The position numbers and the translations under genes are program-made. Source: Flammeovirgaceae bacterium (GTDB lineage Bacteria; Bacteroidota; Bacteroidia; Cytophagales; Cyclobacteriaceae). Taken from it: a stretch of 64,000 nt of DNA. The stretch spans positions 62,001 to 126,000 of the forward strand of contig JAJTEH010000003.1 in assembly GCA_021298355.1 (NCBI GenBank), read 5' to 3'. Shown one piece after another: positions 15,494 to 29,400 of this stretch; positions within the stretch are counted from its first letter, which is position 1; every line of letters begins with the position of its first letter. Under the pieces are notes generated by a model. It worked only from the letters and a program-made list of their open reading frames with translations, searched no databases and was not told the DNA's origin.

Positions 15494-16018
15494 GTGAGTT
15501 TCGTGGATGCCAACGCGAGTTTCGGGAATGACAACGCGAGGTTCGTGGATGCCAACGTGAGTTTCGGGAATGCCAACGTGAGTTTCGGGAATGACATTGC
15601 GAGGTTCGTGAATGCCAACGTGAGTTTCGTGGATGACAACGCGAGTTTCGTGGATGACAACGCGAGTTTCGTGGATGCCAACGTGAGTTTCGGGAATGAC
15701 AACGTGAGTTTCGTGGATGACATCGCGAGTTTCGGGAATGACAACGCGAGTTTCGTGGATGCCAACGTGAGTTTCGTGAATGACAACGTGAGTTTCGTGA
15801 ATGACATCGCGGGTTTCGTGGATGACAACGCGAGTTTCGGGAATGCCAACGCGAGTTTCGTGGATGCCAACGCGAGTTTCGTGAATGACAACGCTAGCTT
15901 TCTTTTTTACATCGCTAGCTTTCTTTTTTACATCGCTAGCTTTCTTTTCTACATAGCTAACTTTCTTTTTTACATCGCTAACTTTCTTTTTTACATAGTT
16001 AGCTTTCTTTTTTAAACC
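15494..16018. repeat. 21-bp tandem array, 25 units (minisatellite 1)
   Basis: Twenty-five consecutive 21-bp units in unbroken register. Units 1-19 (15494-15892) follow the pattern gYgagKttcgKgRatg followed by McaWc, with two-state variation confined to a few positions (GCG/GTG, GTGG/GGGA/GTGA, GCC/GAC, AAC/ATC). Units 20-25 (15893-16018) switch abruptly to a T-rich version beginning GCTAGCTTTCTTTT while keeping the phase. Because 21 is a multiple of three, long ORFs exist on both strands (heptads such as NASFVDD on plus, STKLALA on minus), but there is no recognisable start region, domain or ribosome-binding site, so I do not call a protein. It marks the left edge of the cassette region. Confidence 0.95.
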
Positions 16019-16115: not shown

Positions 16116-16213
16116 CCAACCCTCAGCTACTTGTAAAAGTGTAAGATGTGTATTACTTTTATATAGGGCTCCAATAAAAATATCAGCAAGGAGTTGCTGA
16201 TGTAAACATGTTG
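16116..16213 (+). repeat. Type-2 array repeat, copy A
   Basis: About 98-bp element beginning CCAACCCTCAGCTACTTG, with an internal AGGGCTCC block, a hairpin of TCAGCAA and TTGCTGA arms, and ending exactly at the G|TT of the next cassette (GTTGTAGCTC at 16210). Other copies start at 17383, 19585, 21960 and 23478, and a truncated one at 25643. It behaves like a second attC family or a non-coding cassette end. Confidence 0.75.
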
Positions 16214-16227
16214 TAGCTCATGGGCTA

Positions 16228-16839
16228 ATGAAATTGACGACAATTATATTTTTAGTGATTTCAGTTTCAGTATTTGGTCAGCAAAATATTATACAGACTG
16301 ACTATTTATCTATTTCCGGACGACTGGAACTAAAAGGCAATGACCGAGTCTCAAAAAATAGGTTGGGACTGGTGACTAGTATTCGCCATAAGGACAGCAT
16401 TGAAACAAGACCATTTGACATTGCCGATGATGGACAATTCAAAATTGACAAATTAAACAGTGGTACATATAGATTGACGTTTAGAGTTAATAATGACTAT
16501 GTAACAATTGACACCGTAGTGACAATATCAAGTGAAAGTTTGTCAGAATTACAATTAAAACTATTTAAGAAACCTTGTGACTATGATGCACTCAGAGATA
16601 TTAATGATAGCAAATTAAAAATACTTATATCTAGTGGGACGAGCCCAAGAATTAACAACAAAGGAGACAATGCTTTTGAAAGGAAGTTTGAAATTAAGTA
16701 TGTTGTGTTGGGAGACTCGCAACCGGAAAGTTGGAATTGCCTAAAAAAATACAATGATACTGTTTACGAATTCCTCGATAAAAAATGCGGTAAGAGGTGG
16801 AGAAAAACAGTTCGTGATGATGCTATCGGACTAAAATAG
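16228..16839 (+). CDS. Exported hypothetical protein with carboxypeptidase-regulatory-like domain (cassette gene)
   Basis: 203 residues with a signal peptide (MKLTTIIFLVISVSVFGQ). Residues about 25-115 look like a small beta-sandwich of the carboxypeptidase-regulatory/CnaB type: SISGRLELKGN, FDIADDGQFKIDKLNSGTYRLTF. The C-terminal third (FERKFEIKYVVLGDSQ, then YNDTVYEFLDKKCGKRWRK) is a pattern I associate with uncharacterised Bacteroidota proteins; no catalytic motif is seen. It is the first gene of the array, bounded by GTTGTAGCTC upstream and GAGCTATAAC downstream (9 of 10 complementary). Function unknown. Confidence 0.75.
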   Translation: MKLTTIIFLVISVSVFGQQNIIQTDYLSISGRLELKGNDRVSKNRLGLVTSIRHKDSIETRPFDIADDGQFKIDKLNSGTYRLTFRVNNDYVTIDTVVTISSESLSELQLKLFKKPCDYDALRDINDSKLKILISSGTSPRINNKGDNAFERKFEIKYVVLGDSQPESWNCLKKYNDTVYEFLDKKCGKRWRKTVRDDAIGLK

Positions 16840-16856
16840 ATTCGATTGAAGCGCAC

Positions 16857-16947
16857 GAGCTATAACAACCTGTATGTACAATGGCTTCCAAAATATTTTT
16901 AACTTTAACTAACCAACTAGCCACTGCACATACACACAAAGTTGGTG
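16857..16947 (+). repeat. attC-like site 1
   Basis: Starts GAGCTATAAC. The arms are TGTATGTACAATGGCT (16871-16886) and AGCCACTGCACATACA (16919-16934), complementary at 14 of 16 positions with both mismatches T/C transitions. The right core is GTTGGTGGC at 16941. The loop contains AATATTTTTAACTTTAACT, nearly shared with site 2 at 20161. Confidence 0.8.
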
Positions 16948-17015
16948 GCAAGGCGGTGAACGAGTTAATAACCGACAATAAAGTAAATGACGACTGACAA
17001 TTAAAAATTAAAATA

Positions 17016-17225
17016 ATGACGACACTAATTATCGCGACCTATTTGACCTTAATGATAGCCCTAATTTTTTGGGCGTTGACAGACATTGCCTTTGCTAGAA
17101 AAATTAAAGAAAAAGGAATTTTGTTTTGGTGGATATTAATCTTATTAATGCCTGCTATCGGACCAATACTCTATTTTCAAAATAAGGACAAAAGAGAATT
17201 TAAACCAAAGTTTGACAAACATTGA
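17016..17225 (+). CDS. Small PLDc_N-type membrane protein (cassette gene)
   Basis: 69 residues with two hydrophobic segments (about 3-24 and 33-53). The sequence ALTDIAFARKIKEKGILFWW, then LMPAIGPILYFQNKDKR, closely follows the phospholipase D nuclease N-terminal (PLDc_N) domain, which occurs alone as a short two-helix membrane protein. It has no catalytic site and its role is not known. The cassette start is GTTGGTGGC at 16941; the predicted complementary GCCACCAAC was not found after the gene, so its own attC seems lost or replaced. Confidence 0.75.
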   Translation: MTTLIIATYLTLMIALIFWALTDIAFARKIKEKGILFWWILILLMPAIGPILYFQNKDKREFKPKFDKH

Positions 17226-17344
17226 AGTTTTGGCAACTGGACGAACAGTTCGACCTAGACTATTCATACAATGATTACTTGTGTGACGACAACAAATATT
17301 CAAGTGACCGAGCTTCGAGAATAAAATTAGGTCGACTGCCCTAA
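17219..17344 (+). pseudogene. Possible coding remnant out of frame with the PLDc_N gene
   Basis: An open frame of 41 codons overlaps the end of the PLDc_N gene and continues to a TAA inside the following palindrome. It begins TLKFWQLDEQF and includes DYSYNDYLCDDNKYSS. It has no ATG and could be a frameshifted extension, the tail of a lost cassette gene, or chance. The stop placement at the edge of the palindrome resembles that of other cassette genes here. Confidence 0.25.
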
Positions 17345-17470
17345 GCTGGCGCACGCGTGCCGCGTGTGCCATTTTCTTTTTAACTAACCCTCAGCTATTT
17401 GTAAAAGTGTAAAGTGTGTACTAAATTTATTCGGGCTCTTAAAAGAAATCTTGCTGATGGATTAGGAATA
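17345..17470 (+). repeat. GC-rich palindrome plus degenerate type-2 repeat, copy B
   Basis: GGCGCACGCG (17348-17357) pairs with CGCGTGTGCC (17361-17370) across a 3-base loop with one mismatch. A type-2 repeat then begins ACTAACCCTCAGCTATTTG at 17383, but its right half has decayed: the AGGGCTCC block reads CGGGCTCT and the terminal hairpin is broken. No clear G|TT cassette start follows. Confidence 0.65.
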
Positions 17471-17495
17471 AAAACCTCAGCGATAACTTTACACT

Positions 17496-18113
17496 ATGAA
17501 GAAAGTAATTCTATCATTCCTTTTAATATCAATTACGATAATAATAATTGGAATATTCAAATCTTGTTGTAATCCTAGTGCTATTAACTACCGACTAATT
17601 GCAATAAATGGAAAGGTTGAAAAAATTATAGGTTCGGAAGAGTTAAATTATAATAATGAAGAAATCTATCTGACTGAGAAATACAATCCTTTACTGGGTG
17701 CAATACCTTTTGATAGCGTAGGAATTGTTATTAACATGGATATAGAAAAGTATACGTATAACAAAACGGGAGACGTGCTTAATCCTGCAATTGCCTGTAG
17801 CCCAAATGAGAATTACGAATTTTTAAAAGATTTAATAATTACTACAGATAATGATTACAATAGTTCTTTTCCTAAAGGGGAAGATTTAAAACAATTAATA
17901 TCTATACGATCTAGTTTAATTAATCAATATCGGGTAAAAGGAGAATCGGCAGAGGATTTTCTTAAGATTTCAGGAATAGGCGATGAAAGTTTTTTCTTAA
18001 CCTTTAAAGAACCACCCGATCAAGAATTTACATATAATTTTAGCATAAAATTCATTCTTGTGGATGGACGAGAATATTCAACAGTTATTGAGAACATTGC
18101 CATAAGTCAATAA
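17496..18113 (+). CDS. Hypothetical lipoprotein (cassette gene)
   Basis: 205 residues with a strongly hydrophobic N-terminus (about 3-20) ending in KSCCNPSAINY, so a lipoprotein anchored through one of the two cysteines is likely. The body has repeated beta-strand-like segments (INYRLIAINGKVEKIIG, FDSVGIVINMDIEKY) and FTYNFSIKFILVDGREYST near the C-terminus. It recalls DUF5034-type Bacteroidota lipoproteins, but I am not confident of that. 150 bases separate it from the next gene without an attC-like site, so the two may form one cassette. Confidence 0.6.
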   Translation: MKKVILSFLLISITIIIIGIFKSCCNPSAINYRLIAINGKVEKIIGSEELNYNNEEIYLTEKYNPLLGAIPFDSVGIVINMDIEKYTYNKTGDVLNPAIACSPNENYEFLKDLIITTDNDYNSSFPKGEDLKQLISIRSSLINQYRVKGESAEDFLKISGIGDESFFLTFKEPPDQEFTYNFSIKFILVDGREYSTVIENIAISQ

Positions 18114-18263
18114 CGTAAATCTAACTTAATTACTGATTATCTATTTATTGCCCTTTAAATCTCAAATAAAGAATCAATGTTACGTAGTAAATTTTATTGT
18201 ATACTACAGTATCCTAAAAATCAAATCTTAAATTTGAAAATCTATACTAACAAAAGATTATTT

Positions 18264-19544
18264 ATGATTAAAAAAATATTATCTACAATTGTCCTTCTTT
18301 TCTCATTAAGTTATTTATCATACGGACAAATCGCCCAATCTATAAAAATATCTAAGACCGATTGGGGCAAAAACTTTAAGTTCACAGGCTATGTAAAGTC
18401 AAATGATTCTCTGTCAATAAGATTTGTAACCACTCAATCAACTGCTGAGAGGAAGTACATCAAGGATAAAAGCAAAGAAAGAAAAATTGAAAATACAAAT
18501 TCTGCTTGGACGAAATTTACTTTGATTGGGAAAATACAAAGAAAATGTAGTGTATTAAGTGTTTGGGTCATCACTGATTTAAAAATGAAAAATTTATACG
18601 TAGATAATATAAGTTTAGAAATAGAAGATCATAATGGCTGGAGAAAAATCGATTTGAAAAATGAAGATTTTGAAATGGTTTCAGATAGTGTAAATAAGAT
18701 TGTTGGCTGGAATGTGTACACAAATTATGTAGCAACCGTAGAAAAAACAGAAAAATATTCGGGCCAACAAAGTATACAGTTGGTTCAGCATGATTTGGCA
18801 AAATATGGTGACAACAGAGAATTTAGTCAAAAGATAAAAATTAATGGGGTCGAAATTTATTATGAGATTTATGGACAAGGTGAGCCTTTACTTTTGCTAC
18901 ATGGAAATAATGAATCTATATCTTCATTCAAATATCAAATTGACGAATTCAAAAAATATTTTAAAGTAATAGCTGTTGATAGCAGAGGACAAGGAAACTC
19001 AACGATTGATAAACAAAAGATGACATATGACTTGCTTGCTAATGATATGAACAAACTCTTAGACATTCTTCAGATTGATTCTGTCAATATCCTAGGCTGG
19101 AGTGATGGTGGAAATACGGGTCTGATTATGGCAATGCAGTATCCTAATAAAGTCAAAAGGTTAATAACAATGGGAGCTAATCTTTATCCAAATAAAAAAG
19201 CAATAGAAAACAAATTTTTGAGCGAGTATCGTTGGACTTTAAGATTCGTGAAGGTTTTAGTATTATTCAAACCAAAACAATGGAAAACTAAATATAAGGT
19301 TGGAAAAATGCCTTTGCGCTATCCAAACATTAAACCTATTGAATTACAAAAAATTAATATACCAGTATTAGTAATGGCCGGAGAAAAAGATGTTATCAAA
19401 CAGGCACATACTACATTAATTGCTGATAATATTAGTAAATCTAAGCTGGTCATATTAAAAGGATTATCGCATTATGCTCCAATAGAAAATCATAAGTATT
19501 TTAATATGGAAGTTCATGCTTTTTTATTTAATGCAGCCGATTAA
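18264..19544 (+). CDS. Exported alpha/beta hydrolase with N-terminal beta-rich module (cassette gene)
   Basis: 426 residues from the ATG at 18264, giving a signal peptide (MIKKILSTIVLLFSLSYLSYGQ). Residues about 23-180 form a beta-rich module with KFTGYVKSNDSLSIRFVTTQ and LYVDNISLEIED, resembling a galactose-binding-like fold. Residues about 190-420 are an alpha/beta hydrolase: LLLLHGNNESISSF (oxyanion region), nucleophile in ILGWSDGGNTGL, aspartate in VMAGEKDVIK, histidine in GLSHYAP. The substrate is unknown; lipase, esterase or haloperoxidase-like activity is possible. The longer frame from 18177 lacks a signal peptide and is rejected. Confidence 0.8.
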   Translation: MIKKILSTIVLLFSLSYLSYGQIAQSIKISKTDWGKNFKFTGYVKSNDSLSIRFVTTQSTAERKYIKDKSKERKIENTNSAWTKFTLIGKIQRKCSVLSVWVITDLKMKNLYVDNISLEIEDHNGWRKIDLKNEDFEMVSDSVNKIVGWNVYTNYVATVEKTEKYSGQQSIQLVQHDLAKYGDNREFSQKIKINGVEIYYEIYGQGEPLLLLHGNNESISSFKYQIDEFKKYFKVIAVDSRGQGNSTIDKQKMTYDLLANDMNKLLDILQIDSVNILGWSDGGNTGLIMAMQYPNKVKRLITMGANLYPNKKAIENKFLSEYRWTLRFVKVLVLFKPKQWKTKYKVGKMPLRYPNIKPIELQKINIPVLVMAGEKDVIKQAHTTLIADNISKSKLVILKGLSHYAPIENHKYFNMEVHAFLFNAAD

Positions 19545-19554
19545 AGTGTTACCT

Positions 19555-19682
19555 AAGCTAGCGCAAGCGTTCCGTGTGTTTTAACCAACCCTCAGCTACT
19601 TGCAAAAAAGAAAAGTGCTTGTTACTTTTATTAAGGGCTCCAATAAAAATATCTGTAATTAGTTGCTGATATAAGTATGTTG
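19555..19682 (+). repeat. Degenerate palindrome plus type-2 repeat, copy C
   Basis: AAGCTAGCGCAAGCGTTCCG at 19555 is a decayed form of the GC-rich palindrome seen at 17348, 21837 and 25546. The type-2 repeat (from CCAACCCTCAGCTACTTG at 19585) follows directly and ends at the cassette core GTTGGCGGTA at 19679. Confidence 0.7.
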
Positions 19683-19715
19683 GCGGTAATACCATCTCTA
19701 AAAGGATTATGACTT

Positions 19716-20153
19716 ATGAGTAAGGTTAAGATAAGAATGAACAAACGGATATATTGGATTTTAATTTTCTTATTCACTACGTTTAGTTTTACAACAATCT
19801 ATATAGTCTACTTAACAGACATAGTCTCGGAAAGAATATTAATTCAATACACAACACTTCCACTAATGCTAGCAATGCTATTTTACACTTACAAATTGAC
19901 CGCAAAGTTGATATCTGATGAACCAGAAATCATACTGACAAAAGATTCAATAGAAATTAGAAATTTCACAGAATTAGACAGGAGTAAACTGACTAATTAT
20001 AAGTGGTCTGAAATCAAGGACTTAAAGATTGAAACAATTAATAATAAATCGAGTTTGACAATTTGGACTGATTTTGAAAAGAAAACATTTAACATCTCAG
20101 GACTTGAAAGGACTCCTGATGAAATCCAAGAATTAATTAGAAACACAATGTAA
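19716..20153 (+). CDS. Two-helix membrane protein with PH-like cytoplasmic domain (cassette gene)
   Basis: 145 residues. Two membrane segments (about 12-31 and 44-62) are followed by a soluble domain with EIILTKDSIEIRNFTELDRS and YKWSEIKDLKIETINNKSS, the pattern of bacterial PH-like (STM3941/YdbS-like) domains. No enzymatic motif; function unknown. The ATG at 19716 is taken, with another ATG at 19737. It is cleanly bounded by GTTGGCGGTA upstream and TACCGCCAAC eight bases after the stop, making it the best-defined single-gene cassette in the array. Confidence 0.7.
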   Translation: MSKVKIRMNKRIYWILIFLFTTFSFTTIYIVYLTDIVSERILIQYTTLPLMLAMLFYTYKLTAKLISDEPEIILTKDSIEIRNFTELDRSKLTNYKWSEIKDLKIETINNKSSLTIWTDFEKKTFNISGLERTPDEIQELIRNTM

Positions 20154-20160
20154 ATGGTAC

Positions 20161-20253
20161 TACCGCCAACAATGAACTGTGCGCTATGGCTTTCAAAAAT
20201 AGTTTTAACTTTATAAGATAGATAAGCCACAGCGCATACACAGACCGTTAGCA
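20161..20253 (+). repeat. attC-like site 2
   Basis: Starts TACCGCCAAC, a perfect complement of the upstream cassette core at 19679. Arms TGTGCGCTATGGCTT (20178-20192) and AAGCCACAGCGCATACA (20224-20240) pair with one transition and an extra-helical TA. The right core is GTTAGCAGCC at 20247. The loop segment TTTTAACTTT is shared with site 1. Confidence 0.82.
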
Positions 20254-20294
20254 GCCATAGTAAAAAACCTCAAGCAATGACAAATTCTAATATC

Positions 20295-21800
20295 ATGCGA
20301 ATATATTTAACAACTCTCTTTTCCATTTTCGTAATTGCTTGCTTTGGACAAAGCAAACAAAACACTGACTCTGTGCGAAAAGCTTATGATACAGAAATGA
20401 AAATTATCAGCAATTCTTTTGAAAAATATTATTATCCAAGCAGACCCGAAATATATTCTTTAAATGAATCTTTGTTTTTAAAAAGGGTTGATTCCCTAAA
20501 ACAACCTTTCATGAAAATGACAAATAAATATGTGGTAAAATTTCAAAAGTCAGATAAAAATTTTATTCCTAATGAACAAAGAGAGATTGAATATTTCTTC
20601 GATAGAATAATTCAAGATTATCCTTATTTCCATGAGAACTATACTGGCAAAAAAGTTAAACTCTCTAATTCTGTTCAAAAAAAGCTTGATAAACATTTGC
20701 AAGACTTTAATAATCCAACATTACTTTCAATCAGAGATATCAAAGGCTATATCGAAGGATTTTTAAGACATAAGTCCTCTGATGAAGTAAAAAAAAGCAT
20801 CTATAAAAATTCTGATAACAAAAGGCTTGATGCTTATCTAAACTTAATTCCTAAATACTTTAAAAACAAAGAATGTAAAGAGTATTGGCAGTATCATTAC
20901 CTCTATGCTCATATAGATGACTGGGGAACCAAAAACCTAGATGCTATAGTTGCTACATTTCTTTTCACCTGCGAGAACGAAGCTTACAAGAAAACCATTG
21001 ACTCGATGTATACAGAAAGTGCTAATGCAAGAAAAGACCATCTCATCAAGACTTATAAAACTGTTGATGGATACAACCTCGACATTCACATCTTTCTTCC
21101 TGACAGCATTGATAAAACTAAGAAAAGCCCTGTCATGGTTTATTTTAGTGGTGGTAGCTGGACAAAGGGAAATCCCGAGTGGGCATTTTATGGTTGCGAT
21201 AGCTATGCAAAGAAAGGTTGGGTGGGTGTATCAGTGGAATACAGACTGGCAGACCGCCATGAGACCACACCGTTTGAAGCAGTGAAGGATGCCAGAAGTG
21301 CTATCAGGTGGTTGCGAATGAATGCTGATACTTATAATATTGACACAAACCGAATCGTAGCAACAGGCAATTCGGCAGGTGGACATTTGGTTTTGACTAC
21401 TGCTCTAGCGAACGAATGGAATGAAAATAGCGATAACTTAAATTATAGTGCTACACCAAATCTTTTATTGATTAATGCTGGGGTTTATAGTATGTATTCT
21501 GAAAGCAGCACGGACTGGGTAACCAAAGACCTTTCGGACAAATCTTTGGTAAAGAAAATTTCACCGATTCACCTATTAAGAACGGGTCTTCCTCCTATGC
21601 TTATCATTCATGGGACGAATGACCGGAGCGTTGATTATGCATCAGCAAAAGCTTTTGCAGCTGAAATGGAAAAACTTGGCAACGATTTTGAGTTCCACAC
21701 ATTAGAAGGAGCACCTCATGCTATCTGGTTTGATAGAAGGTTTTCGGGAAAGGTAGCTGAATTAAGAAAAGAATTTTTAAGAAAACATGGATACGAGTGA
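20295..21800 (+). CDS. Exported esterase/lipase-like alpha/beta hydrolase (cassette gene)
   Basis: 501 residues from the ATG at 20295, which gives a signal peptide (MRIYLTTLFSIFVIACFGQ); an ATG at 20277 is possible. Residues about 20-260 are an alpha-helical region of unknown role. Residues about 270-500 are a BD-FAE/HSL-type hydrolase: VYFSGGSWTKG replaces the usual HGGG oxyanion motif, the nucleophile is in TGNSAGGHLVL, the aspartate in IIHGTNDRSVDY and the histidine in EGAPHAIWF. Likely acts on an extracellular or periplasmic ester. Bounded by GTTAGCAGCC and GGCTGCTAAC, a perfect cassette pair; the largest cassette gene. Confidence 0.82.
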   Translation: MRIYLTTLFSIFVIACFGQSKQNTDSVRKAYDTEMKIISNSFEKYYYPSRPEIYSLNESLFLKRVDSLKQPFMKMTNKYVVKFQKSDKNFIPNEQREIEYFFDRIIQDYPYFHENYTGKKVKLSNSVQKKLDKHLQDFNNPTLLSIRDIKGYIEGFLRHKSSDEVKKSIYKNSDNKRLDAYLNLIPKYFKNKECKEYWQYHYLYAHIDDWGTKNLDAIVATFLFTCENEAYKKTIDSMYTESANARKDHLIKTYKTVDGYNLDIHIFLPDSIDKTKKSPVMVYFSGGSWTKGNPEWAFYGCDSYAKKGWVGVSVEYRLADRHETTPFEAVKDARSAIRWLRMNADTYNIDTNRIVATGNSAGGHLVLTTALANEWNENSDNLNYSATPNLLLINAGVYSMYSESSTDWVTKDLSDKSLVKKISPIHLLRTGLPPMLIIHGTNDRSVDYASAKAFAAEMEKLGNDFEFHTLEGAPHAIWFDRRFSGKVAELRKEFLRKHGYE

Positions 21801-21808
21801 CGAAATAC

Positions 21809-21946
21809 GGCTGCTAACATCGTATTGGCTTAAGCTGGCGCACGCGTGCCGTACATTGATATATAGTTTTCGTACCGCGTGTGCCATACATTTTGCTTGT
21901 AGTCGGTTAAAAATATCAGCAAGGAGTTGCTGAATTGTTACCGACC
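21809..21946 (+). repeat. attC-like start and GC-rich palindrome
   Basis: Starts GGCTGCTAAC, a perfect complement of the core at 20247. GGCGCACGCG (21837-21846) pairs with CGCGTGTGCC (21876-21885), with CGTAC/GTACC also pairing inside and an AT-rich loop. A CGGTTAAAAATATCAGC stretch and the short palindrome ending GTTACCGACC (21937) follow. Sequence from 21837 recurs at 25546-25629, without the TATCAGC hairpin. Confidence 0.7.
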
Positions 21947-21959
21947 ATTTTCGTTTTAA

Positions 21960-22056
21960 CCAACCCTCAGCTATTTGTAAAAAAGAAAAGTGCTTGTTAC
22001 TTTTATAAAGGGCTCCATAAAAATATCAGCAAGGAGTTGCTGATATGAATATGTTG
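21960..22056 (+). repeat. Type-2 array repeat, copy D
   Basis: Begins CCAACCCTCAGCTATTTG and carries the AGGGCTCC block and the perfect hairpin TATCAGCAA / TTGCTGATA around GGAG. It ends at the cassette core GTTGTGGGC (22053). Nearly identical in layout to copies A, C and E. Confidence 0.75.
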
Positions 22057-22073
22057 TGGGCAACCCGCAAAAA

Positions 22074-22580
22074 ATGACTATACCGATAAAATACATAGTA
22101 AAATCTAAACCTCGGACAGTAAAAAAACTAGCAATTTGGATAGTTGCGATCGGTACACTATTACTTCTGATTGGAAATTTTATTTATACTCCATTTACAA
22201 CCTTACCGCTGGAACTAAAAGCATTTGCAATAGCTGAATTACTTCCTGAGATAATATTCAACTATAACCTTTTGACAATGTTAATTTTGACGATAGGATT
22301 TGGACTATTGCTATTTAAATGGCGGACAGGTAAAATTACTTTAGACAACGATCAATTAAAAGTTGATGGTTCATTGGGAGTATCAATTCATCCAAAAAAT
22401 ATTATTGACATTGACTTCTTTAACTCAGAATTCGGAATAAAGAGAACGATACAAATAAATTCAAAAACAGACAGAGTTAAACTCAAATTCCGAAATGACG
22501 ATGATTTTGAGGACTTCAGTGCGAAACTAATTGAAAGTGTAAAAAGTTTTGAACACATAAATATTCAAACGTGGACCTAA
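22074..22580 (+). CDS. Two-helix membrane protein, PH-like (cassette gene)
   Basis: 168 residues from the ATG at 22074; the open frame upstream begins with a GTG inside the cassette core and is rejected. Two membrane segments (about 20-41 and 66-85) precede a domain with KITLDNDQLKVDGSLGVSIH and NIIDIDFFNSEFG, the same architecture as the gene at 19716 although the sequences are not closely similar. No catalytic motif. Bounded by GTTGTGGGC upstream and GCCCACAAC downstream, a perfect pair. Function unknown. Confidence 0.7.
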   Translation: MTIPIKYIVKSKPRTVKKLAIWIVAIGTLLLLIGNFIYTPFTTLPLELKAFAIAELLPEIIFNYNLLTMLILTIGFGLLLFKWRTGKITLDNDQLKVDGSLGVSIHPKNIIDIDFFNSEFGIKRTIQINSKTDRVKLKFRNDDDFEDFSAKLIESVKSFEHINIQTWT

Positions 22581-22621
22581 TAAACGGACAACAGGCAAAT
22601 AGTTATTGCCCTAGGCGGGCA

Positions 22622-22707
22622 GCCCACAACAACGGCTATAAAGCATTACTTTTGATTAATTATTTTTTTAAAGGATAAAAGTAACGCTTCATAGCCAAGC
22701 GTTGTGG
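22622..22707 (+). repeat. attC-like site 3
   Basis: The clearest palindrome of the set. It starts GCCCACAAC; GGCTATAAAGCATTACTTTT (22634-22653) pairs with AAAAGTAACGCTTCATAGCC (22677-22696) at 18 of 20 positions, both differences being transitions. The right core is GTTGTGGGTA at 22701, preceded by AAGC, which would be partly extra-helical as in integron attC sites. Confidence 0.85.
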
Positions 22708-22730
22708 GTAATGGCGAAAAAAATTAAGCA

Positions 22731-23351
22731 ATGAATCTACTTTTATCAATACTTCTATTTTCTGTTAGTACTCTTCAAATTGTACCAACATTCAAATCAA
22801 TTCAATCAAAAGATTCAAATTTTATTAGCGAAGTAGATGATGGTCTAGCTGAAGTTCTTCCTGGTTGTAGTTGGTATTGTGGTGGTTTTGTAAGTGGATT
22901 TAATTCATCTTCAGTTTTACCAAATTATAAAGATATTTCTTATTCATCAGAAAAAGCCCATGACTTTGACATATCGACTGCTTGGATTGAGGGTAAGAGT
23001 GATTATGGAATTGGTGAATTTATAGAGTATTCTTTTGATATGTCTGAGGTTAAACAACATCAGCTTGGAATAACTAAATTAATTGTAGCGAACGGATATA
23101 AAAAGAATAGAAAAACTTGGCAAGAAAATGCAAGAGTGAAAAAAATGAAATTATATGTTGATAATAGATTATTCGGATATGTTGAATTAATAGACTCCTT
23201 TGAATTTCAAACGGTAGAGATAAATAAAATTATGCTACCAAAAGAAAAAGTAATGAAATTGAGATTTGAAATTATTGATGTATATCCAGGTACAAAGTAT
23301 AAGGATACAGCAATTAGTGAATTATTGTTTGACGGAGTTGGTGTACATTAA
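22731..23351 (+). CDS. Exported protein with NADase-type glycan-binding (discoidin-like) domain (cassette gene)
   Basis: 206 residues with an N-terminal hydrophobic segment (about 2-17). The body follows the NADase-type glycan-binding domain: HDFDISTAWIEGKSDYGIGE at about 84-103, the N-G-Y in IVANGYKKN, NARVKKMKLYVDN, and the C-terminal VYPGTKYKDTAISEL. CSWYCGG near the mature N-terminus may form a disulfide. The domain is thought to bind carbohydrate at the cell surface; the ligand is not predictable. The cassette start is GTTGTGGGTA at 22701; no matching TACCCACAAC was found downstream, where a different hairpin stands. Confidence 0.8.
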   Translation: MNLLLSILLFSVSTLQIVPTFKSIQSKDSNFISEVDDGLAEVLPGCSWYCGGFVSGFNSSSVLPNYKDISYSSEKAHDFDISTAWIEGKSDYGIGEFIEYSFDMSEVKQHQLGITKLIVANGYKKNRKTWQENARVKKMKLYVDNRLFGYVELIDSFEFQTVEINKIMLPKEKVMKLRFEIIDVYPGTKYKDTAISELLFDGVGVH

Positions 23352-23362
23352 TTTACTGGACA

Positions 23363-23464
23363 AAATGCCACTATCCTCATACGTCCTCATTTGCAACGAG
23401 GACGTATGTGGGTAGCATTTGTAATGCTTTCTTATTCTGCCTCTGGTCGGTATTGTTAGCGACC
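23363..23464 (+). repeat. Strong hairpin plus GGTCGG palindrome
   Basis: CATACGTCCTC (23378-23388) and GAGGACGTATG (23398-23408) are perfect 11-bp arms around a 9-base loop, with an outer AAATGC / GCATTT pair (23363-23368, 23415-23420). The short palindrome GGTCGGTATTGTTAGCGACC ends at 23464 and matches the segments before copies D and F of the type-2 repeat. It takes the attC position after the glycan-binding cassette gene. Confidence 0.7.
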
Positions 23465-23477
23465 ATTTTCTTTTTAA

Positions 23478-23575
23478 CCAACCCTCAGCTACTTGTAAAA
23501 CAGAGAAACAAGTGTTACTTTTAAAAAGGCTCCTAATAGAAATATCAGCAACTTGTTGTTGATATAAGTATGTTA
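23478..23575 (+). repeat. Type-2 array repeat, copy E
   Basis: Begins CCAACCCTCAGCTACTTG and ends at the cassette core GTTAGCGTGC (23572). The terminal hairpin is a variant (TATCAGCAA / TTGTTGATA with ACTTG between). The AGGGCTCC block reads AAGGCTCC. Confidence 0.72.
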
Positions 23576-23603
23576 GCGTGCATTTTTCTGGACAGCAAGA
23601 CAT

Positions 23604-24145
23604 ATGAAACAAATTGGACTAATAACTTTAATCTTGACTATTTTGACACTCGGTTGTCAACCGACAAAAGATCAAGAAACTGTTGAGACAACTGATTCAT
23701 TGTCTAATGACCGAGTTGATACACAGACCAAAATTGACGAACCAAAGTCAACTGACAATAGTGAAAAGCCTAAGGATTTTTCTGAATTCGAAATGACATT
23801 TGAGCACGAGAACAAAGAACAAAAATTCAGACAGAGATTAGGTGTGACTTGGGTGACAAATGACTCAATAGAGTTCCGACTATTCTCAGAGGACGAACTT
23901 TGTGACACAGACTATTGGGGAGATGCAAAGAATAATTTTGCCGAAATGGACCCAGAATCAGACGAGGACGAAACTGGCGAGTCGTATTTCGCATCTGAGT
24001 ATGTGACAAAGCAAGAGACGTATGAAAAATTAGGATATCGTTAGACAAGGACAGAGCAAGAATATCTTTCGTTGACAAATCAGGTGAGGATACTGATTGC
24101 ATACCAACACCTAATTTAGTTTTGGTAAAGAAAAACGCACGCTAA
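23604..24145 (+). pseudogene. Frameshifted hypothetical lipoprotein gene (cassette gene)
   Basis: A lipoprotein signal (MKQIGLITLILTILTLGC) is followed by a low-complexity S/T/D-rich linker and an acidic domain (FEMTFEHENKEQKFRQRLG, VTWVTNDSIEFRLFSEDE). The first frame stops at 24044 after YEKLGYR. Stepping back one base at 24041 continues as LDKDRARISFVDKSGEDTD, then CIPTPNLVLVKKNAR, with its stop at 24143-24145 overlapping the attC start GCACGCTAAC. The continuation is collinear and plausible protein, so a one-base loss (mutation or sequencing error) is likely. Function unknown; as read, the product would be 146 residues. Confidence 0.65.
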
Positions 24146-24270
24146 CACAATGTTTCTGCAATGGTGCCGTGACGATTTGATTTAAAGTTTTATCTTCGTT
24201 CAACGTTTTCGTTTCGTGGGACAGGACGCAGCTTCTAAAGCGCACTACTGCATAACCACAAACGTTTTGC
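24137..24270 (+). repeat. attC-like site 4
   Basis: Starts GCACGCTAAC, a perfect complement of the cassette core at 23572. Inner arms TGCAATGGTGC (24157-24167) and GCACTACTGCA (24242-24252) pair with two mismatches. The loop is longer than in the other sites, about 75 bases, and contains CAACGTTTTCGTTTCGTGGG. The right core is GTTTTGCGTA at 24264. Confidence 0.7.
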
Positions 24271-24312
24271 GTAATGCGGTAAAGACATTTTGTGCCAACT
24301 CAATTTAACGGA

Positions 24313-25005
24313 ATGAAAAACTTAACAGCATCAATACTAATTATTACTTTAATAAACTGTACAGACTCAAATTCAAAAGACGTGGGACTATTTGACAAAC
24401 TATTCGGTAAGACTGGGAAATCGAACGAGACATCAAAAATTCAAACTGATACAATTAAACTTGTTAAAACTGCCGAAATGTTGGACGAGGATAAGTTTTG
24501 GGAAATTATTAGCAAGTCCCTTAAGTCGACCAAAAGTCAAGATGCTCAAGAAAGATTTCTGATATCAGAAATTGAAAAGCTTACTCAAAAAGAAATGATT
24601 GGTTTTCGTCTACGGACGGATTATCTGCTTTATCATACTTATAATTCTGAAATGTGGTGCGCTGCCTACATTATGAACGGAGGATGCTCAGATGACAGTT
24701 TTGAATACTTTAGATGTTGGGTAATCTCAAGAGGAAAGGACACATATTACAATGCCAAAGCGAATCCTGACTTTTTGATAAGTGAAGTTGTTGAAGGGGC
24801 TGAATTTTATGACTTCGAGAGCTTTTGGTATGTTGCCTTAGAGGCATTCAAACATAAAACTGGAAAAGATCTATACGACTATATTGACAACGAGAATTTT
24901 AAGACGAAGGAAGGATCCTATCCGCAATTTGAATTCACCTGGCAAGAGGAAAAACCTGAAAGCATGAAAAAGATTTGCCCAAAATTGTTTGCCAAGTTTA
25001 ATTGA
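24313..25005 (+). CDS. DUF4240-domain lipoprotein (cassette gene)
   Basis: 230 residues from the ATG at 24313, giving a lipoprotein signal (MKNLTASILIITLINC). After a spacer, the segment MLDEDKFWEIISKSLKSTK through FRCWVISRGKDTYY and WYVALEAFKHKTGKDLYDYI matches DUF4240, a domain of unknown function often found beside WGR or antitoxin-like genes and usually cytoplasmic; a lipoprotein version is unusual. The cassette pair is GTTTTGCGT upstream and ACGCACAAC downstream (8 of 9 complementary). Confidence 0.78.
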   Translation: MKNLTASILIITLINCTDSNSKDVGLFDKLFGKTGKSNETSKIQTDTIKLVKTAEMLDEDKFWEIISKSLKSTKSQDAQERFLISEIEKLTQKEMIGFRLRTDYLLYHTYNSEMWCAAYIMNGGCSDDSFEYFRCWVISRGKDTYYNAKANPDFLISEVVEGAEFYDFESFWYVALEAFKHKTGKDLYDYIDNENFKTKEGSYPQFEFTWQEEKPESMKKICPKLFAKFN

Positions 25006-25021
25006 TAGATGAAGCAGCACC

Positions 25022-25113
25022 ACGCACAACAACGTATATAAAACATAGCGGCATAGTTGATTTTTAATTTGTTATTTTGGAGTGCTGGCACGTTTTACAT
25101 ACAAGCGTTGTTT
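25022..25113 (+). repeat. attC-like site 5
   Basis: Starts ACGCACAAC. The left arm CGTATATAAAACATAGCGGC (from 25033) pairs with TGCTGGCACGTTTTACATAC (from 25083), the remaining differences being mostly transitions plus small extra-helical steps. The right core is GTTGTTTGC at 25107. CACAACAACG at its start matches site 3. Confidence 0.82.
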
Positions 25114-25130
25114 GCAAGTGCTTAAATGAG

Positions 25131-25535
25131 ATGATGAGAAGAATATCACATTCGTTATTTCTAGGACTAATATTTTGTATCGGACAAAGTTTTGGGGAAT
25201 CAATTATTGGATTTTTTATAACCAACGTCAGACGGGCAAGTGACATGACTTTTGAAGGCGCCATCATGTTTATGTGGATAAGGATTGCAATGACTATAAT
25301 TCCATACTTGACAACATTTGTGGTTGTGGACTTATTAACAAAAGCTAAGTTGAGACCTTCTTTTATCTCACTAGGACTAAATGTCATTATTCTGATTTAT
25401 TTCTACAACGTGGGACTAATACACAAAGACCCCGCTTCATTTAGCATTGGTTCTTTGCTGACAAGTTTGATTTTACTAATGATAGACAAACAGTCAAGGA
25501 TAAGAAGGTATTCGAAAAAAGGAACAATGGTGTAA
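25131..25535 (+). CDS. Four-helix membrane protein (cassette gene)
   Basis: 134 residues from the ATG at 25131 (a second ATG is at 25134); the open frame upstream lies inside attC-like site 5 and is rejected. Hydrophobic segments at about 5-25, 45-65, 76-94 and 100-117 predict four membrane helices; the C-terminus is basic (QSRIRRYSKK). No family recognised. The cassette core upstream is GTTGTTTGC at 25107; no complementary site was found after the stop, where the GC-rich palindrome stands. Last gene of the array. Confidence 0.65.
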   Translation: MMRRISHSLFLGLIFCIGQSFGESIIGFFITNVRRASDMTFEGAIMFMWIRIAMTIIPYLTTFVVVDLLTKAKLRPSFISLGLNVIILIYFYNVGLIHKDPASFSIGSLLTSLILLMIDKQSRIRRYSKKGTMV

Positions 25536-25540
25536 GCCCC

Positions 25541-25651
25541 TAGCTGGCGCACGCGTGCCGTACATTCATTTATAATTTTCCTGCCGCGTGTGCCATACAT
25601 TTTGCTTGTAGTCGGTATTGTTACCGACCATTTTCTTTTTTACTAACCCTC
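25541..25651 (+). repeat. GC-rich palindrome and truncated type-2 repeat, copy F
   Basis: GGCGCACGCG (25546-25555) pairs with CGCGTGTGCC (25585-25594); the segment to 25629 closely parallels 21837-21946 except that it lacks the TATCAGC hairpin. The type-2 repeat starts CTAACCCTC at 25643 and is cut after nine bases, where tandem array 2 begins, sharing the CTC. Confidence 0.7.
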
Positions 25652-26236
25652 GCTGGAAGATATTGGCACCTCGGAGTTTGCAGAGAGCACCTCGCTGGAA
25701 GATATTGGCACCTCGGAGCTTGCAGAGAGCACCACGCTGGAAGATTCTCGCACCTCGGAGCTTGCAGAGAGCACCTCGCTGGAAGATTCTCGCACTGCGG
25801 AGCTTGCAGAGAGCACCTCGCTGGAAGATTTTCGCACCTCGGAGCTTGCAGAGAGCACCACGCTGGAAGATATTGGCACCTCGGAGCTTGCAGAGAGCAC
25901 CTCGCTGGAAGATTCTCGCACTGCGGAGCTTGCAGAGAGCACCTCGCTGGAAGATTCTCGCACCTCGGAGCTTGCAGAGAGCACCACGCTGGAAGATATT
26001 GGCACTGCGGAGCTTGCAGAGAGCACCTTGCTGGAAGATATTCGCACCGCGGAGCTTGCAGAGAGCACCTCGCTGGAAGATTCTCGCACCTCGCTGGAAG
26101 ATTCTCGCACCTCGCTAGAAGATTCTCGCACCATGCTGGAAGATTCTCGCACCATGCTGGAAGATTCTCGCACCTTGCTGGAAGATTCTCGCACCTCGCG
26201 CGATGATTCTCGTACCTTGCTGAAAAGTTTTCTCCC
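25649..26236. repeat. 21/42-bp tandem array (minisatellite 2)
   Basis: Ten 42-bp dimers (25649-26068), each one unit of the CTCGCTGGAAGATATTGGCA kind and one of the CTCGGAGCTTGCAGAGAGCA kind, both 21 bp, followed by seven to eight single 21-bp units of the first kind (26069 to about 26236) that decay at the right end. Variation is limited (TCGC/ACGC/TTGC, ATATTGG/ATTCTCG/ATATTCG, CTCGG/CTGCGG). Several frames are open on both strands only because 21 is divisible by three; none shows a start region or known domain, so no CDS is called. Confidence 0.95.
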
Positions 26237-26471: not shown

Positions 26472-29400
26472 CTAACTATTTTCAACAATCTTAATTTCTT
26501 CCTCTGTTAAATCATAAAGTTTGTAAACCAATTGGTCGATTTGGTTTTCTAAGTTTGTGATATCTTCGTCAGGATTTTTCTCTTTGATTGAAAGGCATTG
26601 TCTTACAAGATTTGTTATTTCTTGACTTTCATCATCTATTACTGGAAAGTCTTTAAGATAAACATAGCTAGGTTCAAAATAATCTCCCCTAAGTTTTGGT
26701 AGAATAGATTTGAAGAGGAAAAAGAATAGACTGCTATTTAATACTCCAAGGAATGTTAGTGTAAAATGAGTAATTATAAAACATTTCTGATTCGTATAAC
26801 TCATTCGATTATCTAAAGAAAACTCAGGCCGTTTACAAATATTTGGATATACAATCTTAGCCTTTTCAAATTCATCGTAATAGTCGCATGCTCTTAATTC
26901 CCACCAATAGTCACCTTTATCAGTTCTTCTCTCAGCTGCCAATTTGTATTGCGAAAGATGTTCAGCTATTGCTGGAAATTCCTTTTTTATCCATTCCCAT
27001 GCATCATCATACGCCATGTCTCCATATCTCGGTGGTGGTTCTGATGCTAGATAATTTGGATTGCCTTTAGGAAGATTTCTTTTGATTGTAAATCCTTTTG
27101 GGAATAGAATCAAAAATTTATCAGGAGTTGGAGTTTGATATCGTTTAATATCTCTGCCGGCTAAAAAGGGCTTAATAACCTTTGCACTTTTTGGATCATC
27201 TTTTATCAGCCGATCTTTAGTTTCTTTATCAATTACAAAAGCTTCATTAAAACCAGTTAAAACACCTCTATAAATTTTTCCATTTACATATTCCCCAAGT
27301 GGTTTTCCTTTGCTTTTAATTTTGGTTAGTATGGATTGTACTTTAGAATCTGATAGTGTCCAACCTTCAGAAGAGAGTTCGTCAATGTTTACTTCAATTT
27401 GATTTTCTTCTAGGTAAGCTTTTAATCCTTTGTTGAATTGTAGGGTATTTATATTGCAAGCGGTAAATGTTTTTTCCGCACCACTTTTTCTTACTTGAAT
27501 GATGTTCGGATATGTGGTTGCTTCTTCAAACACTGGTAAATCTCCAAAGTCAACCACTTGATGGATTTTATGTTTACCTATAAATTGACGAAGTTTTTTT
27601 CCGTATCCTGCTCGCATCCATTTATTTGGAATTATGTAAGCAAATTCTCCTTTAGATTTTAAAACTCTAAATGCTTGCTCAACAAAATACACAAACAGAT
27701 CGGCTGTGCCTGTGCCTGTTTCTTGAAACGCAGAAAGCAAATAGTTCTTTAATTCTGAAAACTCTTCTTGTCTTATATAAGGCGGATTACCAATCACCAC
27801 ATCAAAGCCTACAAAGTCGCCTTCGCTGTTTAGCACTTCAGGAAATTCAAAGCGCCACTCAAAGGCATTCTCAAATATTTTGTTGGCTTTTATTTCTTCT
27901 ATCTCTGTTTCTAGTTTTTGTATCTCTTGTGTTTTCTTCTCTACGTTTTTGTCCCACTCTTTCTTTTCTTTTTCGCTCATGCCAAAAATACTTTGCTGGG
28001 TGGTAAGGCTGGTTAGCTCTCCGTTTAATTTGTAAAGCTTGGCTAGCTTGGGGTCGTTTTTGTTTATCTCTGTTCTAAAATCAGTTTTTATATCGGCAAT
28101 TAGTTTTTCCATTTCGCGCTTCTGCTCTTTGCTTTCGGCATTGCGGTATTGGTCAACAGCCGCGCGGTAGGTGTCTATGCTCCACTTGCTTTTTTTCAAG
28201 GCTTGTTTTAAATCGGCATCAATGGCAAAGCGGCTCACCAAAGAGTTGCCACATTTAATATTGATATCGATGTTAGGCAGTGTTTCTAGTTCGGTGGCGT
28301 TTTTGTAGTACGCGTTTTTCAAAAGTTCAATCCACAAACGCAAGCGGCAAATTTTTACAGAGTTGGCATTAATATCTACTCCGAAAAGGCAGTTCTCTAT
28401 AATGCTTTGTTTTTCGTGGAAGAGTGTTTCTTGTATGCGCTGTGCCTCACCCCCCGCCCTCTCCGAAGGAGAGGGAGCAATGTATTCAAAGAGTTCGCCT
28501 TCTTCGTCTGTTACAATTAATTCATCGTTTACCACTTCTACCTGGTATTCTTTCAGGCGTTTGCCGCTGCGGTCTTGTAAAATTTTTAAATCGTTTTTAA
28601 CGGCAATCATCTCGTTAAGTGCCGAAACAAGAAAGTGCCCTGAGCCCACGGCAGGGTCGCAGATTTTAATGCTGTTTACAATGGCGTTGGCTTCGTTGCG
28701 GTCTTCAATTTTATCGTAGAGTTCTTCGAGTGTATGGCAATTCCAATTTTTGGTTTCGTTAAACTTTTGCACCACGGCTTTGCGTATGGTTTCGCGGCAC
28801 ATGTACATGGTGATAAAACCAGGTGTAAAGAAGGAGCCATCTTTGTAGCCGTTTATCTTCTCGAAGATTAAACCCAGTACGGAAGCGTTGATGAGTGTTT
28901 TGTTGTCTTCTTGTATTTCTTCGCCCCCTTCTGCACCAAAATCGTAAGCATCTAAAAACTCGAACAAGTATTGCAGCGTGGTGAGTTGGCCACTTCGCTT
29001 TTTGCCTTGCTGATCTTTTAAAACTGTTTGCGCATAAACAGGAATCGTTTTATCATCTTTTAAATTGCTGATGAACAACGTGATTTGTTCTACCTCTGTA
29101 GGCTCGAACAAGGACGAGTTGAGGTATGGAACTTTCTCGAATAGTTTTTTTACATCTGCATTTCTATCGGTGTGTTTTCTGGCGAGTACCTGAAAGAAAA
29201 GACTGTTGAGGTCGTCATAGCTTTTTATTTTCTTGTTGTTGAGAAAAGCATAGGTAACATCGCCCCTATGGTACGAGATAAGTTGGGCTTCGAGTAATTT
29301 TAAAAAGAGAATGCGGTTTACCCACGTGATGCTTAGCTCGAGCGCCACATTGAACAGGCGCTCTTGTTGTGTGTTGCCATACTGATTGGGTTTATCTAGG

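Follow-up and report, generated by a model that had tools for sequence, protein, structure and literature searches.

In the 64,000-nucleotide stretch of a Flammeovirgaceae bacterium genome analysed here (the window; contig JAJTEH010000003.1, positions 62,001 to 126,000), attC-like palindromes stand between small plus-strand genes at about 16 to 25.6 kb. On the evidence of the sequence, these small genes are probably cassettes of the integron type. They would belong to an integron system whose integrase, a tyrosine recombinase encoded on another contig of the genome (C64), lacks the I2 insertion of the IntI integrases and acts in trans on dispersed copies of attI. In the proposed mechanism, a cassette would extend from the TT of a G|TT boundary to a folded attC-like site, whose R'' element would pair with the start of the same cassette, as in a circle recombined at G|TT. 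Cassettes would enter at attI, a palindrome about 10 nt upstream of G|TT situated just downstream of the integrase gene, and the array would run in the direction of that gene. The attI site, together with a promoter-like block, appears to have been copied to about a dozen places in this lineage. The integrase gene on C64, a contig separate from that of the window, would serve the window mini-arrays by acting in trans on these copies, each of which would start and express its own short array.

Putative cassettes, attC-like sites and leaders

An earlier note, made from the letters of this stretch, had described an integrase-less integron cassette array with five attC-like palindromes, and all five are present (Table 1). 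The complementarity that it had described between cassette starts and R'' elements, perfect over 9-10 bp in four cases and imperfect in two, is also borne out. The start at 19679 pairs with the 20161 site (10/10), that at 20247 with the R'' at 21809-21818 (10/10), that at 22053 with the 22622 site (9/9) and that at 23572 with the 24137 site (10/10); the pair 16210/16857 has one mismatch in 10 positions and the pair 24264/25022 has one in 9, or two in 10. The relation was quantified with 14 cassettes of this genome, six from the window and four each from contigs C61 and C5, found by reading the sequence and thus forming a sample that is not blind. Of 7 variable positions, 5.9 on average are paired between the start of a cassette and its own R'', versus 3.0 for wrong partners, and pairing at six or more positions is seen in 9 of 14 own pairs versus 4 of 182 wrong pairs. 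None of 100,000 permutations equalled the observed own-pairing sum (p 1e-5). The bottom strand, the strand that the earlier note had proposed to fold, was computed to be more stable in 9 of 12 sites of this genome (12 of its 13 sites were counted, the C64 site being excluded).

The cores of the window sites deviate from GTTRRRY, as had been claimed, and Rfam at gathering thresholds gave no match in 15-27 kb of the window. An automatic scan of the genome with strict stem thresholds overlooked most of the sites on C5 and C61. A covariance model (R1) was built from 46 sites, all of other Bacteroidota genomes, and recovers the window sites at 22621-22710 (E 2.6e-9), 25021-25116 (E 1.7e-5), 20135-20256 (E 1.1e-3) and 16857-16950 (E 2.2e-3), four of the five. 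At all four, the strand reported is that expected for bottom-strand orientation. Across the whole genome, R1 reports 11 sites at E<=0.01 (best E 1.2e-10). In ten other genomes, seven of which supplied training sites, it finds from 5 to at least 150 sites per genome at E<=1e-5, scoring being capped at 150, with counts of 43, 53, 93 and at least 150 in four genomes that supplied training sites and 25, 21 and 5 in the three that did not. At E<=0.01, matches exist in 19 of 20 family-level genomes, several of them without a recombinase at E<=1e-60.

Each of the four mini-arrays of the window is opened by a leader of about 93 nt ending in ..ATG|TT (leaders 1, 3, 4 and 5 in Table 1). With the leader as query, the genome gives 16 matches at E<=1e-3, 12 of which, including the four of the window, cover 84-93 of the 93 positions and four of which are partial. 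Near-complete leaders are found on C22, C68, C61, C6, C70 and C5, and those on C61 and C5 head more cassettes, whose attC sites resemble the window ones. Over the last 40 nt before G|TT, the most frequent base has a mean share of 0.82 among 13 leaders; immediately beyond the TT, conservation drops. The same 13 leaders share a conserved block, CTTG-N(~19)-TTACTTTT, which resembles the -33/-7 promoter of Bacteroidota and may represent a Pc-like promoter. Sequence comparison makes the leaders look like dispersed attI copies. Sixteen leader matches at E<=1e-3 are present in the sister species (G297) and none at this threshold in 12 other relatives, which makes attI multiplication look specific to this lineage. 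A single chromosomal site is common to this genome (C5 and C68 flanks) and the sister species, with different content. The orthologous stretch of the sister species after an mdh-like gene has no similarity to the array region of the window, a site that is not shared; because the break there is not at G|TT, it indicates only that the region differs.

A recombinase family without I2 and its arrays

The description as integrase-less holds for the window, which has no Phage_integrase (PF00589) match, but not for the genome, which has five (C1, C64, C40 and two on C2). The C64 gene (G000, C64:366-1532, minus strand) encodes a 388-residue tyrosine recombinase. Its score with the integron-integrase model TIGR02249 is 202.1 bits, below the cutoff of 265, and it is also below the cutoffs of the Xer models TIGR02224 (190.6/335.15), TIGR02225 (197.7/329.6) and NF040815 (217.4/220). 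Of two other Phage_integrase proteins of this genome, the first passes the cutoff of XerD and the second is scored best by XerC, under the cutoff. No IntI was found in this genome at E<=1e-45.

Relatives of the C64 protein were collected from a scan of a genome collection, in which at least 554 of the 585 candidate stretches listed were relatives, and 80 were kept. Among the matches listed, the relatives belong to Bacteroidota groups, except for one from Chlorobiota. The alignment comprises 79 relatives after removal of L096 (a fragment) and L165 (a wrong open reading frame, ORF). The catalytic Arg, HxxR and His are present in all 79, Tyr in 78 (one gap) and Lys in 76. The distance from the K-patch to HxxRH is 65-67 residues in all 79 relatives and 65 in the C64 protein, versus 107 in 11 of 11 IntI, 70 in the XerC of this genome and 73 in its XerD. 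The family thus lacks the IntI-specific I2 insertion around patch III.

In a quick maximum-likelihood tree, the 11 IntI form one group with a support of 99 (SH-aLRT, Shimodaira-Hasegawa-like approximate likelihood ratio test), and the 28 rows of the family lie outside this group. The family, IntI and three other recombinases are joined against XerC/XerD (SH-aLRT 98). For this tree, 19 of 30 loci were tried and 15 were used, L237, L238, L244 and L245 having no ORF; the sequence set A3 holds 24 of a first list of 33, without L128 and L133, whose translation failed, and seven more. The genome-wide search that the earlier note had suggested for a recombinase of the IntI type leads to a candidate that groups beside IntI, but that is no member of the IntI family by I2, by the TIGR02249 cutoff or by clade. 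The nearest solved structures by sequence are the archaeal Xer proteins 4a8e (4.7e-42) and 5hxy (4.1e-40) and VchIntI4, 2a3v (1.4e-38). The same three are at the top of a Foldseek search of PDB, in which the listed matches are tyrosine recombinases (XerA, VchIntI, lambda Int and Cre). The first ~110 residues of the C64 protein form an extra N-terminal region of predicted strands and helices, with no Pfam match before residue 115; the AlphaFold model of the protein has a predicted local distance difference test score (pLDDT) of 81 and a predicted template modelling score (pTM) of 0.52. A 290-residue recombinase frame without the extra N-terminal region, from another class of the phylum (L246, G005:C1:1064334-1065116), is placed next to the I2-less family by the tree and could represent an earlier form.

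At C64 and in the relatives, a palindrome and then G|TT follow within about 100 nt of the stop codon of the recombinase gene. In C64 and its closest relatives this site reads ATATCA.CAATA..GATA....TG|TT, or a near variant, and resembles, as judged by eye, the leader ATATCAGCAA....TGCTGATATAA.TATG|TT. Relatives with near-identical attI sites have different first cassettes; L117 and L138, for example, are identical over 45 nt and then 35% identical. This comparison covered 73 loci and gave 22 pairs that passed; it picked the best-contrasting GTT and is hence biased. A break-point test free of this selection used the 69 pairs retained by a seed filter, which are non-independent. In it, similarity downstream of the recombinase ends within -3 to +4 nt of a shared GTT in 35 pairs. 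The corresponding counts for control triplets are 16/56 for ATT, 15/61 for AAT, 7/55 for TAT, 10/63 for AAA, 4/34 for TTT, 0/21 for GAT and 0/31 for ACA, a span of 0-29%; TTA gives 23/49, but overlaps GTTA. The breaks that the earlier note had expected exactly between G and TT are seen, to within a few nucleotides, in about half of the pairs, and the other half end elsewhere.

Arrays of attC-like sites lie downstream of the recombinases of this family. The 3' flank has attC-like sites at densities of 0.466/kb and 0.303/kb on its two strands, the 5' flank at 0.06-0.08/kb. Of 80 loci, 35 stop within 1 kb of the recombinase on the 3' side and none does so on the 5' side. In these downstream regions, the cassette rule (pairing at 6/7 positions or more) holds for 60 of 118 neighbouring sites, versus 6 of 118 when a site is compared with itself and 19 of 666 for other sites. 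Of 42 segments between sites that contain an ORF of at least 90 residues, 41 have it on the strand of the recombinase, and the expected bottom strand was computed to be more stable in 56 of 60 sites and less stable in three. ORF direction and strand stability together give the layout intI, attI and cassettes, all in one direction. In one genome (G314), 19 distinct sites follow the recombinase, every one of them best on the same strand. A candidate layout in which the site downstream of the C64 recombinase is an attC, with arrays convergent with the recombinase, was rejected by ORF direction, strand stability and the strand of R1 matches; the cassette rule is symmetric under reversal and thus cannot settle the orientation of an array. 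Further recombinase frames occur near attC clusters: fragments of 91-105 residues on contig C1 of G309, and additional tyrosine recombinase frames of 290-325 residues on contigs C2, C6 and C14 of G314.

Among 198 sampled genomes of the class, the recombinase family is found in 102 (E<=1e-60) and attC in 61 (E<=1e-6, strict filters). Both are present in 46 genomes, attC only in 15, the recombinase only in 56 and neither in 81 (Fisher p 7e-6, phylogeny ignored). By hand count, 25 of the listed sites fall within 20 kb of a listed recombinase, and 23 of these, from 13 of 14 genomes, have a downstream position and the expected strand. Full IntI above the cutoff is found in 84 of 296 genomes of the phylum. 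Among the listed IntI matches, G037 is the only genome of the same class and the rest are of the same phylum, the share of the class in the 296 being unspecified.

Alternative readings and known systems

The sequence features tested fit an integron by function. The C64 recombinase would perform the reaction, using the folded bottom strand of attC; the promoter of the leaders would be functional, and excision and insertion would continue. More broadly, Bacteroidota may well possess a second kind of integron, with an integrase that recombines folded attC without I2, either as a surviving stage that preceded I2 or as an independent solution. Multiplied copies of attI and its promoter would here turn one integron into distributed, expression-ready capture sites served in trans.

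Several points weigh against these interpretations. Recombination itself is unobserved, and in this genome the recombinase gene lies on a contig other than that of the window array. The ~265 nt between the C64 attI-like site and the contig edge contain no attC. In the studied IntIs, I2 is considered essential for attC recombination, so its absence speaks against the standard reaction. Neither reading nor scanning revealed a complete attC behind the final cassette in any window mini-array, so all four may be frozen. The bottom strand is favoured in just nine of the twelve sites counted in this genome. Similarity is lost away from GTT in 34 of the 69 attI pairs, and the cassette rule fails in the remaining detected neighbours beyond the 60 of 118, for which false detections and decay are likely reasons. 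At E<=1e-60 the recombinase is missing from 15 of the 61 attC-bearing genomes, and at E<=1e-6 with strict filters attC is missing from 56 of the 102 genomes with the recombinase. The test of their co-occurrence ignores phylogeny, and the two sites listed at G490:C31 occupy the wrong strand. The tree was built quickly, has flagged long branches and lacks archaeal XerA.

The best-surviving alternative is an ordinary CALIN (a cluster of attC sites lacking an integrase), in which a canonical, I2-bearing IntI, since lost or residing in another cell, gathered cassettes that are now frozen, the I2-less recombinase being an unrelated Xer-like enzyme. The criterion of at least two attC less than 4 kb apart applies to the window, where the five sites are 0.75-3.2 kb apart and no recombinase is present, and the window alone would be classed as CALIN by the description in IntegronFinder 2.0 (PMC9024848). 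According to the same source, attC clusters without an integrase are common; the incomplete last cassettes of the window and the 15 attC-bearing genomes without a recombinase at the threshold used also agree with this explanation. We regard it as improbable, because IntI at E<=1e-45 is absent from this genome, which offers no close candidate other than the C64 gene with its attached attI-like site, and because the arrays of relatives adjoin the I2-less recombinase on a fixed side and strand. An IntI over the cutoff is moreover found in a single listed genome of the class, that of G037 (with the above reservation on the class share). The system also differs from the CALIN described there by a recombinase and attI-like site elsewhere in the genome and by attI-like leaders within the window.

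Still less probable is a second alternative, in which the I2-less recombinase is Xer-like and acts on the double-stranded attI palindrome only, with cassette movement being rare or due to some other enzyme and attI copies having spread as attI-type cassettes. The attI site is a good palindrome, the enzyme has no I2 to grip extrahelical bases, and its closest solved structures include archaeal Xer besides VchIntI. However, long one-strand attC arrays downstream of the recombinase with own-start pairing, and first cassettes that differ between near-identical attI sites, need an enzyme that uses attC. It is very improbable that the palindromes represent dispersed repeats or terminators of an ordinary kind, accidentally spaced between small genes, since own-start pairing, the G|TT boundary and strand bias are unexpected of such elements, repeat-rich as the window and dispersed as the leader repeats are.

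Taking the integron with an I2-less integrase as the preferred reading, the earlier note stands as to integron-type cassettes and their G|TT boundary, the relation of start to R'', bottom-strand stability and non-classic cores; it had missed the repeated leaders, and the integrase must be added to it. Such a system shares with canonical integrons (IntI, TIGR02249; attI; attC) an attI-like site with G|TT, one-way arrays, R''/L''/L'/R' sites with own-start pairing, a more stable bottom strand and a tyrosine recombinase that groups beside IntI. It differs from them in an integrase that lacks I2, has the N-terminal region of ~110 residues and scores 202 bits against a cutoff of 265, as well as in non-GTTRRRY cores and many dispersed attI-like copies. 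The chromosomal integrons of Treponema (PMC3607928) likewise have intI transcribed toward attI, in the direction of the cassettes, whereas one attI per integron is stated there, a statement that dispersed attI copies would break. With XerA/XerC/XerD the C64 protein shares the catalytic residues and the lack of I2, and its 217.4 bits are just below the cutoff of 220 of NF040815, an XerA-type model named 'site-specific tyrosine recombinase/integron integrase'. Unlike XerC/XerD, the C64 family groups with IntI (in a tree without archaeal XerA) and sits at cassette arrays; XerC and XerD of this genome are encoded by separate genes. The attG sites and delta-attI-type cassettes (PMC12901181) resemble the present system in that cassettes are found away from the primary attI and pieces of attI travel with cassettes. 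The attG sites are cited in that paper as targets in the genome at which cassettes insert, in contrast to the conserved ~90-nt attI-like-plus-promoter element seen here.

How I2 and attC arose is presented as a chicken-egg paradox by Escudero et al., 2016 (PMC4792948), neither seeming selectable without the other. Escudero, 2020 (PMC7790495) takes the acquisition of I2 as the starting point, and in the paper on archaeal integrons the additional domain counts as a defining feature. A natural I2-less relative of IntI at large attC arrays would make the chicken-egg question directly testable. For Bacteroidetes, IntegronFinder 2.0 (PMC9024848) gives only In0 as known earlier, and one complete integron, in Salinibacter. 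No I2-less integrase with attC arrays in Bacteroidota was found in the accessible parts of the open-licence PMC literature, a scope that leaves most subscription papers and preprints outside. A search that demands an IntI-specific profile may miss this system, and with the recombinase family in 102 of 198 class genomes, a common gene-capture system may go unrecognised.

Features of the array region and its surroundings

The features of the array region are collected in Table 1.

Table 1. Leaders, open reading frames and attC-like sites of the cassette region, in window coordinates
Feature	Position	Strand	Remarks
Leader 1: promoter-like block and attI-like palindrome	16118..16210	+	Ends at G|TT, G at 16210
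Putative cassette 1 ORF, 203 aa	16228..16839	+	Sub-threshold Pfam matches only
attC-like site 1	16857..16949	+	R'' vs start 16210: 6/7 variable positions
Putative cassette 2 ORF, 69 aa, PLDc_N	17016..17225	+	Own attC end not found
Leader 2 remnant	17386..17416	+	Degenerate, without G|TT
ORF after degenerate leader, 205 aa	17496..18113	+	Cassette status uncertain
ORF, 455 aa, alpha/beta hydrolase	18177..19544	+	Cassette status uncertain
Leader 3, attI-like	19587..19679	+	G|TT at 19679
Putative cassette ORF, 145 aa	19716..20153	+	No Pfam match
attC-like site 2	20161..20256	+	R'' fully complementary to start 19679
Putative cassette ORF, 507 aa, BD-FAE/esterase	20277..21800	+	
R'' of truncated attC	21809..21818	+	Fully complementary to start 20247
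Leader 4, attI-like	21962..22053	+	G|TT at 22053
Putative cassette ORF, 174 aa, GTG start as listed	22056..22580	+	No Pfam match
attC-like site 3	22622..22709	+	Highest stem score among the five
Putative cassette ORF, 206 aa, NADase translocation F5/8-type domain	22731..23351	+	Complete attC after ORF not found
Leader 5, attI-like	23480..23572	+	G|TT at 23572
Putative cassette ORF, 146 aa	23604..24044	+	No Pfam match
attC-like site 4	24137..24272	+	R'' fully complementary to start 23572; unreported by model R1 at E<=1
Putative cassette ORF, 237 aa, DUF4240	24292..25005	+	
attC-like site 5	25022..25115	+	R'' vs start 24264: 5/7 variable positions
Last putative cassette ORF, 152 aa from TTG as listed	25077..25535	+	No Pfam match; own attC end not found

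A short repeat, AGCTGGCGCACGCGTGCC, with an inverted partner, occurs close to the 3' ends of the mini-arrays, at which the last attC is truncated or absent. Its copies are at 17344-17370, 19556-19579, 21833-21885 and 25542-25594, and one of them is degenerate. Adjoining the array on the minus strand (26472-30299) is a gene for a 1275-residue Eco57I-type restriction-modification methylase with DUF7149 and DUF7814, and a gene resembling it lies beside the C61 array (seen by reading, unaligned). Tandem repeats of 21 bp and 42 bp bracket the array at 15496-16014 and 25648-26222. Sequence like the repeat at 25.6-26.2 kb is also present on C6 of this genome and in the sister species G297, on stretches that bear leaders.

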